From the NCBI RefSeq assembly GCF_014879935.1, contig NZ_JACSRD010000069.1:1-33550 (forward strand): DNA of 33,550 nt, written 5' to 3'. The stretch comes from Prosthecobacter sp. (lineage in GTDB: Bacteria; Verrucomicrobiota; Verrucomicrobiia; Verrucomicrobiales; Verrucomicrobiaceae). The notes under the pieces are model-generated. The model was not told the DNA's origin, ran no database searches, and saw only the letters and a list, made by a program, of their open reading frames with translations. Shown piece after piece: positions 31,335 to 33,550 of the stretch (its first letter is position 1; each line of letters begins with the position of its first letter). Position numbers and translations under genes: made by a program.

Positions 31335-31796
31335 TTAGCGAGGAAGACCTGCTGCGTTTGGTGGCGCTGCTGCAAAAGCAGCCGGCGCGTCACTGATCTG
31401 GGCGTCCCCCGGAGCCACGGAGGGAGCCCTCCGAGCGAGGGTTTTCGGGGTTTTGGAAGCTTGGGGGCCGGAGAACGGGCCAAATTCGTGGATGGGTGGT
31501 GCGGTGACGGACTCCCGGTGGGAAACGGTTCCCAGAGAGTTCTCCCCAGCGCCCATAAGCCACATTCTGGCCCATCTGAGAGGAGGCCCTCCGTCGCGCT
31601 CCAGCCGGACAAAGAGCGGATCGGTGTCCACTCCCCCGCGCTTGAGCAGGAACGCGGCCTCGGTTAGAAAAGCCTTGCAGGTGGGCATCGGCGGCTTCAG
31701 CCGTTTCCACTGCTCCGCCACCCACTCGTGGTGCTCCAGACCGGCGGCGAGGAAGGAGACCAGCGGCCCGATGCCCAGCAGCACCGTCTGCCTCAC
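31335..31796 (-). pseudogene. Damaged PIN-domain toxin
   Basis: The first ~70 residues resemble a VapC-like PIN toxin: VLLGIGPLVSFLAAGLEHHE, then PPMPTCKAFLTEAAFLLK and LFVRLERDG. The catalytic Asp expected in the DTGPLVA-type block is lost (GIGPLVS). After LERDG (about 31605) PIN homology ends; the C-terminal half, which supplies further acidic residues, is replaced by Pro/Arg-rich sequence that does not look like protein. It starts with GTG overlapping the antitoxin stop (GTGA at 31793-31796), so the original coupling to the RHH antitoxin is intact. Confidence 0.75.
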
Positions 31797-32038
31797 CGGC
31801 CAAAGCCCTCCATGTATTTGGAATGCGTCGCCAGATCCTTCGGCAGCTTCTTGCGGACAGACCCTGCCAAATCACGCGCTAGATCGTAGCAGGAGGTCGC
31901 ACAGGCCGATTTCGCCAGCTCCAGCTCACGTTCCAGCGCCGCGCGGACCACCGCCGACTTCGTCAGACGCCGCGCACGGCTTTCCTGTTCCAACCGGAGC
32001 AGCAGCGATTCGGGGAGTTTGAGGGAAAAAGTGCTCAT
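31793..32038 (-). CDS. Ribbon-helix-helix antitoxin
   Basis: An 81-residue protein. MSTFSLKLPESLLLRLEQES and RRLTKSAVVRAALERELE form a ribbon-helix-helix DNA-binding domain (beta strand with alternating residues, then two helices) typical of CopG/VapB-like antitoxins. The C-terminal half (SCYDLARDLAGSVRKKLPKD, then THSKYMEGFGR) should wrap the toxin. The ATG at 32038 is preferred to 32119, whose extra residues overlap the ParE-like gene end. Its partner is the damaged PIN gene downstream. An antitoxin kept after loss of its toxin may still repress its promoter or neutralise related toxins. Confidence 0.85.
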   Translation of the reverse strand: MSTFSLKLPESLLLRLEQESRARRLTKSAVVRAALERELELAKSACATSCYDLARDLAGSVRKKLPKDLATHSKYMEGFGR

Positions 32039-32115
32039 GAGTGGCGCATGGAAATACAAGCCATGCTCGGCGGCAATACCCAATCTGGTCCGCGTGCGAC
32101 CGTTGCAGCCCGATG

Positions 32116-32424
32116 TCACTCGAACAACGGCGGAAGGTTCCTCGCGCCGTGGAGGATGCGCAGGACTTCGACTTCATCAGCCAGTTCGCGATAAAAGAGC
32201 AGGTAGTTGGGATACTGCGCTGCGGGCAGAAAGCGGATGCCTGCGAAGCGAGGCGCGCTGAATCGCGGACGCACACCCAGATCTGGCTGATCACCCAGCG
32301 CTTCGGCCGTGTCGAGAAGATCACGGCGCACATCCTCGGCGGCCACAGCGTTGTCTTGTGAGATGTAGTTCACGATCTCTTCCAAGTCATCCACCGCCAC
32401 CGGGTTGAAGACGACCGGCTTCAT
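32116..32424 (-). CDS. parE: ParE/RelE-superfamily toxin
   Basis: A 102-residue toxin. VVFNPVAVDDLEEIVNYISQ matches the ParE N-terminus, followed by the helix TAEALGDQPDLGVRP. RFAGIRFLPAAQYPNYLLFY and VEVLRILHGARNLPPLFE contain the conserved Arg, Tyr and the RILHGARNL ending typical of ParE. ParE toxins poison DNA gyrase; some relatives cut mRNA. Starts at 32424 with ATGA overlap to the antitoxin, the standard order. The longer frame to 32706 runs through the antitoxin and is rejected. Length and motifs are intact, so it is likely functional. Confidence 0.9.
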   Translation of the reverse strand: MKPVVFNPVAVDDLEEIVNYISQDNAVAAEDVRRDLLDTAEALGDQPDLGVRPRFSAPRFAGIRFLPAAQYPNYLLFYRELADEVEVLRILHGARNLPPLFE

Positions 32425-32633
32425 GCTGTTTTCTGGCGCAGTTGCGAGAGGGGGACGCGTTTGCCAGGATGCGAAAGCGCCTCGTCCAGCAGCGATTCGA
32501 GCGCGTGAGAGGCTCGACGGCCAAACACGGTCTTCACTGCGGCTTCTAAAGCCCGATCCATGCTCGGGAAGTGACCGTTGGCGACTTGCTCGCGCAGCAA
32601 GGCTTCGACCGGGGCAGTAAGGGTGGCAGTCAT
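32421..32633 (-). CDS. parD: ParD-like antitoxin
   Basis: A 70-residue antitoxin for the ParE-like toxin, overlapping it by ATGA. MTATLTAPVEALLREQVANG, then HFPSMDRALEAAVKTVF, is a short RHH-like DNA-binding start. The C-terminal helix and tail (RRASHALESLLDEALSHPGK, RVPLSQLRQK) should cover the toxin. The segment from this gene's first codons through its promoter is present twice more nearby, as relics at 30530-30684 and 33166-33258. Confidence 0.85.
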   Translation of the reverse strand: MTATLTAPVEALLREQVANGHFPSMDRALEAAVKTVFGRRASHALESLLDEALSHPGKRVPLSQLRQKTA

Positions 32634-32696
32634 CGGACCATCGTATTCCTTCGCCCACGCCGGGCAAGCTCCAACTGCCCGGCTTCCTCGTGCTTG
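32601..32696. repeat. Antitoxin-promoter repeat, copy 2 (with intact operon)
   Basis: Covers the first codons and upstream region of the intact ParD-like gene: GGCTTCGACCGGGGCAGT, ending near GGCTTCCTCGTGC. It aligns with copies at 30647-30800 and 33226-33370, including ATTCCTTCGCC and CCGGGCAAGCTCCAAC. It should contain the ParDE promoter and operator. Confidence 0.75.
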
Positions 32697-32712
32697 GCGA
32701 TGACAACCGAGA

Positions 32713-32970
32713 TCACAAAAGGACGATGTCGAGGATTCTCAACTCATGCACCGGACCGTCCGCCCAATAGGTGAGCAGGTAGTCCTCGACCCGCAGGTTC
32801 TCCAAATGTCGGCCTGTGCTGTCCGCGGTTTGGTAGTCTCCTAAGCGGCCAGGGTTGTCCGCCAGTTGATGGATGATCTTGGCGAGTCGCTGCTGTCGCT
32901 TGCGGGAAAGGGAGCCGAACAGCTCCCACGCTCTCGCGGACAAAACAGGCTCGTAGGATTTCGCCGCCAT
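32713..32970 (-). CDS. RelE/ParE-like toxin
   Basis: An 85-residue toxin of the RelE/ParE superfamily. YEPVLSARAWELFGSLSRKR is the N-terminal strand and helix, with RQQRLAKIIHQLADNPGRLG as the second helix (a RelE-type phrase). RHLENLRVEDYLLTYWADGP and VHELRILDIVLL are the beta sheet. The catalytic residues of RelE are not obvious, so its activity is uncertain. The ATG at 32970 follows the antitoxin stop by one base; an upstream start at 33021 would overlap the antitoxin. Confidence 0.82.
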   Translation of the reverse strand: MAAKSYEPVLSARAWELFGSLSRKRQQRLAKIIHQLADNPGRLGDYQTADSTGRHLENLRVEDYLLTYWADGPVHELRILDIVLL

Positions 32971-32971
32971 G

Positions 32972-33169
32972 TCAGCGTGCGGCGGCTGGTTTGCGGGGCA
33001 GCCGGAACTTCTTGCCGGCATCCATCTCGGCCATCCGGCGCGTCATCTCCTTCTGCCAGGCCGGCGTCTGCTGTTTCAAGCGGTGCAGATACGCGCTGAT
33101 CTCCTGCCGCTCCCTTTCCGTGATCTGGGAGAGCTGCTGTTTGAGTTGAAGCATGGCGATGGCGCTCAT
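32972..33169 (-). CDS. Antitoxin of the second RelE/ParE-like pair
   Basis: A 65-residue helical protein (MLQLKQQLSQITERERQEIS, AYLHRLKQQTPAWQKEMTRR, MAEMDAGKKFRLPRK) of the kind encoded before RelE/ParE-like toxins in several phyla. It ends one base before the toxin ATG. Starts at 33169 or at an internal ATG at 33154 (MLQLKQQ) are both possible. The 33169 ATG overlaps the stop of a 30-codon leader ORF made from a relic of the other antitoxin, so its translation may now be coupled to that leader. No DNA-binding fold is evident. Confidence 0.78.
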   Translation of the reverse strand: MSAIAMLQLKQQLSQITERERQEISAYLHRLKQQTPAWQKEMTRRMAEMDAGKKFRLPRKPAAAR

Positions 33170-33258
33170 GTCGGTAGTTTGGAGGAGTCAAAAGCCTTTG
33201 CAACACCCGATGCGGCCCGGAGCACGGCTTCGACCGGGGCGGTCAGGGTGGCCGTCAT
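33166..33258 (-). pseudogene. Relic ParD start acting as a 30-codon leader ORF
   Basis: Reads MTATLTAPVEAVLRAAS then GVAKAFDSSKLPT and TGA. The first 14 residues match the ParD-like antitoxin (MTATLTAPVEALLR) nearly exactly; the rest is unrelated. Its stop overlaps the start of the second antitoxin (ATGA at 33166-33169). It carries the repeat's promoter segment upstream, so it may drive the second operon. Confidence 0.75.
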
Positions 33259-33370
33259 GGGACCCTCGGATGCCTTCGCCTGCTCCGGGCAAGCTCCAAC
33301 GGCACGGGCTCCTCTTATGCCTGACAAAGACAAGAGAGGGGCCGCCACTTTGTCAGACAGTTGCACACTG
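33226..33370. repeat. Antitoxin-promoter repeat, copy 3
   Basis: Third copy of the segment, including GGCTTCGACCGGGGCGGT, GGGTGGCCGTCATGG, CTCCGGGCAAGCTCCAAC and GTCAGACAGTTGCAC followed by ACTGAC. With copy 1 it shares the GTCAG...CTGAC inverted pair at its left end relative to the minus strand's upstream side. It lies in front of the second toxin-antitoxin pair. Confidence 0.75.
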
Positions 33371-33374
33371 ACCC

Positions 33375-33407
33375 CATTTTACACCATTTTACATTTTACC
33401 ATTTTAC
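33375..33407. repeat. Four CATTTTAC repeats
   Basis: Copies at 33375-33382, 33385-33392, 33392-33399 and 33400-33407, spaced 7 to 10 bases apart. They form an AT-rich island just upstream, on the minus strand, of promoter repeat copy 3. It could be a promoter UP-like region or a protein-binding array. Confidence 0.7.
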
Positions 33408-33494
33408 GACACGAGAATTCTGGCCTTGGCCCGTTACGCAGCGACAGTTCTTCAAAACAGCGCAAACAGGCATGGTTTCAACTTAGGCAGTGTT

Positions 33495-33550
33495 TTAAAA
33501 CCTCTTGAGCGGCTGCATCCAATCGATGACAGCGGCGAAAGCGAGCAGTG
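33495..33550 (-). CDS. Possible C-terminal end of a protein (partial)
   Basis: At the window edge a minus-strand frame reads LLAFAAVIDWMQPLKRF and TAA. The hydrophobic stretch with a basic end looks like a membrane-protein terminus, but 17 residues are too few to identify. Confidence 0.3.
   Translation of the reverse strand, partial: LLAFAAVIDWMQPLKRF

Follow-up and report, generated by a model that had tools for sequence, protein, structure and literature searches.

The window, by which we mean the whole 33,550-nucleotide stretch of a Prosthecobacter sp. contig analysed here, carries near its end two toxin-antitoxin (TA) pairs, one behind the other. All genes, modules and promoter elements of the window located below are on the reverse strand. 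The upstream pair, here called TA2, consists of an antitoxin of 65 aa (33169-32972) and a toxin of 85 aa (32970-32713). It is preceded by a leader ORF of 30 codons (33258-33166), whose translation is MTATLTAPVEAVLRAASGVAKAFDSSKLPT, followed by the stop codon TGA. This TGA (33168-33166) overlaps the ATG of the TA2 antitoxin (33169-33167), as the first-pass annotation of this DNA had described. The downstream pair (32633-32116) includes a ParE toxin of 102 aa (32424-32116), which lies well above the Pfam cut-off (PF05016, E = 3.4e-15, 56.8 bits against a cut-off of 23), and an antitoxin of 70 aa (32633-32421). The latter has no Pfam match, and TIGR02606 aligns along its length (residues 1-63) with 14.1 bits, below the cut-off of 46.2. 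Thus, we call it ParD-like because of its position and this weak match. A further parD-type module is found at 30740-30639, in which a 5-bp insertion behind the start shifts the frame of parD.

Proteins and distribution of TA2

TA2 resembles RelBE-type pairs (PF09720/TIGR02574) in having the antitoxin first and the toxin second, and in the predicted RelE-like fold of its toxin. However, the antitoxin shows a weak likeness that stays under both family cut-offs (17.3 bits against 23.3 for PF09720, and 16 bits against 31.9 for TIGR02574), and the toxin matches no TA family in Pfam or NCBIfam. Pfam likewise gave no TA family for any of the 7 members of the toxin alignment, and NCBIfam gave the toxin no match. 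When this alignment was searched against the sequences of solved structures, there were four matches only (E = 0.097-0.11), none of them a TA protein. The fold was predicted from an AlphaFold2 model (mean pLDDT 84), whose best PDB match was 9g12_A, an entry for M. tuberculosis RelBE1 (E = 2.5e-5, TM = 0.74), and many more RelE-type entries were matched as well.

Close orthologs of the TA2 toxin (53-69% identical) were found in seven other genomes out of 142 searched, and the leader was absent from all seven. The start codon of the antitoxin was unchanged across 10 aligned homologues. In GTDB, we found 7 loci, 6 in Verrucomicrobiaceae (one of them Brevifollis gellanilyticus) and one weak match in Thiorhodococcus. 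In addition, five genomes have a homologue of the TA2 antitoxin (L137, L138, L139, L140, and L141) that has no TA2 toxin and stands directly before an ApbA/PanE-like (ketopantoate reductase) gene; the frame of this gene appears broken in L139.

Origin of the leader ORF

The first-pass annotation had read the leader ORF as starting like ParD (MTATLTAPVEA) and diverging afterwards, and both observations were borne out. Residues 1-11 are identical to the first 11 of the ParD-like protein encoded at 32633-32421. In the DNA, the likeness takes in about 60 bp ahead of the ATG as well as about 14 codons, and it stops at 33218. We refer to this stretch (33320-33218) as the parD relic. A 181-base query, searched against the own genome (7.7 Mb), recovered four parD-type modules with E values from 5e-90 to 3e-20: the relic itself, C24:82361-82463 (93%, E = 3.1e-38), the intact module at 32689-32593 (84%, E = 6.9e-23), and the frameshifted one at 30740-30639 (80%, E = 3.3e-20). 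The fifth-best match was far behind, with E = 0.014. Among 56 genomes searched, the closest match outside the own genome was G028:C64:106374-106463 (96% over 90 bp). The likeness is well above chance, and the start of the leader ORF is genuinely copied from the 5′ end of a parD gene. The relic derives from a gene like that of the neighbouring type II pair, which has a clear ParE and a ParD-like antitoxin; unlike a ParDE pair, it retains only about 14 codons with upstream DNA, and the place of its −10 is changed. A tandem duplication of the neighbouring parDE is disfavoured as the source, since the C24 copy (93%) and the orphan copy of G028 (96%) are closer to the relic than the neighbour is (84%).

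The remaining part of the leader (33231-33169) is not parD but the own upstream DNA of TA2, and the ORF is a chimera of the two. This was seen from genome G015, which has a broken TA2 antitoxin with matching 62 bp upstream (173 bp at 87%) and no parD module in front of the shared 62 bp. The 99-bp block before these 62 bp has no significant likeness to the parD module in local alignment, where its score was reached by 268 of 1000 shuffles; in global alignment the result was borderline (40/1000), and the block may hold a faint trace of parD. The parD homology ends at 33218 and the TA2-upstream homology begins at 33231, so that the two overlap by 14 bp (33231-33218), which is the likely recombination joint. 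On the right side, the window is homologous to the parDE modules in both G015 and G028 from 32706 onward, six bases past the toxin stop codon, and in both of these genomes an orphan parD copy is followed by parDE without TA2 in between. Because of these homology limits and this layout, we consider that in the window TA2 with about 60 bp of upstream DNA replaces the 3′ end of an orphan parD and the spacer behind it. The two homologies and their ends are seen by sequence comparison, and the direction of the event is inferred.

When 142 genomes (including the own) were searched for the antitoxin together with the 62 bp before it, the whole upstream part aligned only in the own genome and G015, and the chimera was found in no relative. 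Conservation of the leader in relatives, by which we would recognize a regulatory upstream ORF (uORF) of a TA operon, was thus not seen. Meanwhile, parD and TA2 families are both present in six genomes (parD searched in 56). The two are no more than about 3 kb apart in four of these (G000, G005, G015, and G018) and on separate contigs in G006 and G028, and rearrangement between them seems recurrent. In G018 (L065, G018:C1:550248-550751), a parD remnant lacks a start codon where one would be expected and continues in frame into the TA2 antitoxin, and the TA2 toxin there is cut down to residues 59-84.

A putative promoter at the antitoxin ATG

A mechanical sigma-70 scan gave 0 sites in 32000-33550 on either strand; therefore, orthologs were compared instead. 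In front of the TA2 antitoxin, we found the putative promoter TTGCAA-16-CAAACT. The putative −35 (33203-33198) lies at −34 from the ATG, inside the leader ORF, and the putative −10 (33181-33176) keeps A at the second and T at the sixth position, with 3 of 6 consensus bases. The −10 ends six bases before the ATG, so the predicted transcript start lies beside the antitoxin ATG. To describe this geometry, we used a rule that asks for TTG between −33 and −37, 16-18 bases of spacer, and, at about −12, a hexamer with A second and T sixth; the rule was set post hoc from the TA2 sequences and then applied unaltered to the other sets.

Under this post hoc rule, 7 of 8 TA2 orthologous pairs, the window included, have kept a −35/−10 geometry from which transcription would begin at the antitoxin ATG. 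By chance, shuffled versions of each ortholog sequence reached it in 0 to 4% of cases. The sole failing ortholog is L043, whose antitoxin frame diverges as after a frameshift. Counted by hand, the hexamer keeps 3 consensus bases in L041 and 2 in L044. In addition, the TA2 remnant of G015 keeps the TTG and has lost the −10, and by eye no such promoter site was seen in the sequence upstream of the G018 fusion. Five of the seven relatives matched the DNA query of antitoxin plus 62 bp, with alignments that start at or within 17 bases of the ATG; thus, the sequence further upstream is not common to these five.

The ATGA overlap is nothing unusual. ATGA stands at the antitoxin start in 8/8 TA2 orthologs, seven of which lack this leader. 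From the joint to the TGA in the window, one of the three frames is open, and the same frame upstream of ATGA is open for 9 to 59 codons in the seven other orthologs. Nothing in these sequences points to selection for translational coupling at the overlap.

Promoter position of the parD modules

All four intact close parD copies (window, G028, G015, and G007) have TTGCCC-16-TACGAT before the ATG, which in the window is the putative promoter of the intact parDE (32667-32640). The leader copy retains the −35-like TTGCCC (33292-33287) but has TCCGAG (33270-33265) where the intact copies have the putative −10 TACGAT. The same TCCGAG is found in C24, in the orphan copy of G028, and in two copies of G015. 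These five copies probably share one ancestor, so the change may be one event. In the frameshifted copy at 30.7 kb, it is the TTG that is gone. None of the six leader-type and frameshifted modules follows the rule.

How widely the geometry holds

Beyond TA2, the geometry was seen at 6 of 7 distant parD genes. For this set, 16 starts were scored out of 25 parD matches; L078, one of the seven counted, has an internal stop, L075 shows the geometry but stands outside the seven with ATA as its aligned start, and L076, L080, L082, L083, L086, L088, L089, and L090 (fragments or doubtful starts) were left unscored. Among distant RelE-like loci, the geometry was found at 18 of 22 antitoxin starts, from 25 loci examined; several ATGs were tried at some loci and some loci are related, L057, L062, and L067 had no candidate start and were left out, and L038 lies outside the set. 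The share was lower at the ParE loci of the genus (10/30), where ATG starts only and antitoxins of 45-110 aa were considered, with 56 starts tried; some of the failing loci may have a wrong start. Since only 10 of these 30 show the geometry, we rejected the notion of leaderless transcripts for all TA operons of the genus. Furthermore, none of the five solitary TA2-antitoxin homologues next to a reductase-like gene has it, and four of the five have TTG at −34 or −35. As background, the geometry occurred at 12 of 1104 ATGs in the window, at 216 of 15145 ATGs in the fetched loci (overlapping loci counted repeatedly), and at 3 of 30 long ORFs that do not overlap one another and served as candidate genes.

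Interpretation

We propose that the leader is probably a recombination scar within an island of TA genes, and that TA2 brought along its own compact promoter and is read from a leaderless or near-leaderless mRNA. A self-contained RelE-type TA2, together with about 60 bp that belong upstream of it, would have replaced the 3′ part of an orphan parD and the spacer to the next parD module, with the left joint placed in the 14-bp microhomology. As the conservation among orthologs suggests, TA2 would be transcribed from TTGCAA-16-CAAACT inside the leader ORF, with a start at or a few bases from the antitoxin ATG, and ribosomes would enter there and not by way of the parD relic. The promoter position of the relic, without the key −10 bases, would probably be silent. 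In short, TA2 seems to carry its own promoter against its first codon, and the relic seems to be a passive scar and not a control element. Several points count against this reading: the post hoc origin of the rule, the weak −10 (3/6), the empty sigma-70 scan, the TAAAAT hexamers described below, the ParE loci (10/30), the solitary homologues (0/5), and the G018 fusion.

The first-pass annotation had proposed that TA2 captured the promoter and ribosome loading of the ParD type, which would put it under foreign control; on this reading, TA2 would no longer control itself and would rely on the parD relic for both. Its interpretation stands in part: there is a parD relic before a different TA pair, and the capture of promoter and ribosome loading found no support. 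The relic module does lie directly before TA2, intact parD modules probably hold a promoter at that distance, and G018 shows a second, independent joint of parD and TA2. However, TCCGAG stands at the −10 place of the relic, and the promoter said to be captured thus looks dead. In addition, about the last 17 codons of the leader are DNA of TA2 itself, present in G015 without parD, and the putative TA2 promoter (33203-33176) is still present in the window, on that side of the joint which comes from TA2. The first-pass annotation had also suggested seeking relatives where the pair has its own promoter. These were sought, and the putative geometry is shared by 7/8 orthologs, the window included; the seven orthologs other than the window have no such leader. 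It had further named a transcription start within 33166-33258 as the result that would speak against capture, and the start predicted beside 33169 lies in that interval. We therefore regard dependence on the relic as highly improbable. Even less credible is a capture of the operator alone, in which the relic would retain a ParD binding site and the ParD of the neighbouring parDE would repress or tune the transcription of TA2. By eye, a 7-bp inverted repeat (GCCGGGC/GCCCGGC) covers the −35 in several parD modules, but both of its arms are altered in the leader copy, with 5 of 7 pairs left; the putative site would also be about 90 bp upstream of the TA2 promoter, and binding of ParD there is hypothetical.

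A dual control deserves more weight, and we still think it unlikely. Here TA2 would have its own promoter and, in addition, a second transcript from the AT-rich stretch upstream would run through the relic; the leader would be translated and would feed ribosomes to the antitoxin via the ATGA overlap, raising the ratio of antitoxin to toxin. The leader is an open frame that reaches into the antitoxin start, and four TAAAAT hexamers at 33406-33376 could be the start of such a longer transcript, the best of them scoring 8/12 and paired, over a spacing of 15, with a poor −35. Nevertheless, the ATGA is ancestral to the TA2 start and was not made for the leader, and the leader is known from one sequence, the chimera having been found in no relative among the 142 genomes searched.

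The compact promoter of TA2 may reflect a more general rule. We put forward, with chances that we judge slightly short of even, that many type II TA operons of Verrucomicrobiaceae, from at least two antitoxin families, are leaderless and hold their whole promoter within about 37 bp before the antitoxin ATG, and that such a unit could land anywhere, even in another TA gene, and keep its own control. A leaderless reading of TA2 is biologically ordinary, and its spread across TA families of the lineage is the more interesting lead. Should many TA operons of this family share the geometry, it would be easier to understand how a TA pair survives a move to a foreign site. Furthermore, the proposed regulatory hijack would be replaced by a simpler rule with a sharp prediction, namely that the TA2 mRNA begins at the antitoxin ATG.

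Support also comes from outside the lineage. Of the 37 M. tuberculosis TA pairs to which a primary start site was assigned, 32 are leaderless (PMC3898074), and in Akkermansia muciniphila, which also belongs to Verrucomicrobiota, 10% of the mapped start sites are at gene starts (PMC4782308). TA2 is like the TA operons of M. tuberculosis in that the transcript start, mapped there and predicted here, is at the antitoxin start codon. For TA2, what is seen is a promoter geometry, in another phylum. If the proposal is true, the link between TA systems and leaderless mRNA known from M. tuberculosis recurs in a distant phylum. In a literature search by titles and the beginnings of abstracts, with subscription journals largely outside its scope, none of the matches listed concerned leaderless TA operons in Verrucomicrobiota. 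Meanwhile, a regulatory uORF has been reported in front of the TopAI-YjhQ TA operon of E. coli (PMC12121999). As here, a short ORF precedes a TA operon; whereas that ORF reportedly regulates its operon, the leader of TA2 is a chimera, found in one genome only, that contains the promoter geometry of the pair.

Other rearranged TA loci

Some further parD-type loci were noticed. On contig C24 of G000 (L031:4424-5799), a truncated parD-type module (about 37 ParD residues) lies directly upstream of a Y1_Tnp (IS200-like) transposase ORF, and GCAACTGTCTGACAAA flanks the parD piece on both sides. This sequence was rejected as a genome-wide repeat: with no mismatches allowed, it has 3 exact sites only in the genome, each adjoining a parD-type module. 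In the window, the gene after a CopG-like antitoxin (31796-31335, no Pfam match) starts like a PIN-domain toxin of G015 (L126:3629-4048) and then diverges, and the DNA homology to G015 stops at 31592. In the G015 locus itself (L126:2400-4412), parD occurs three times over about 2 kb around parDE and a CopG-PIN pair; two of these copies are orphans with the TCCGAG variant, one of which is frameshifted near the start. In G007 (L127:1588-2469), the parE after an intact parD is cut short and is followed by a ParD-ParE pair on the opposite strand (PF03693, PF05016), which is a second case of one TA pair lodged within another.
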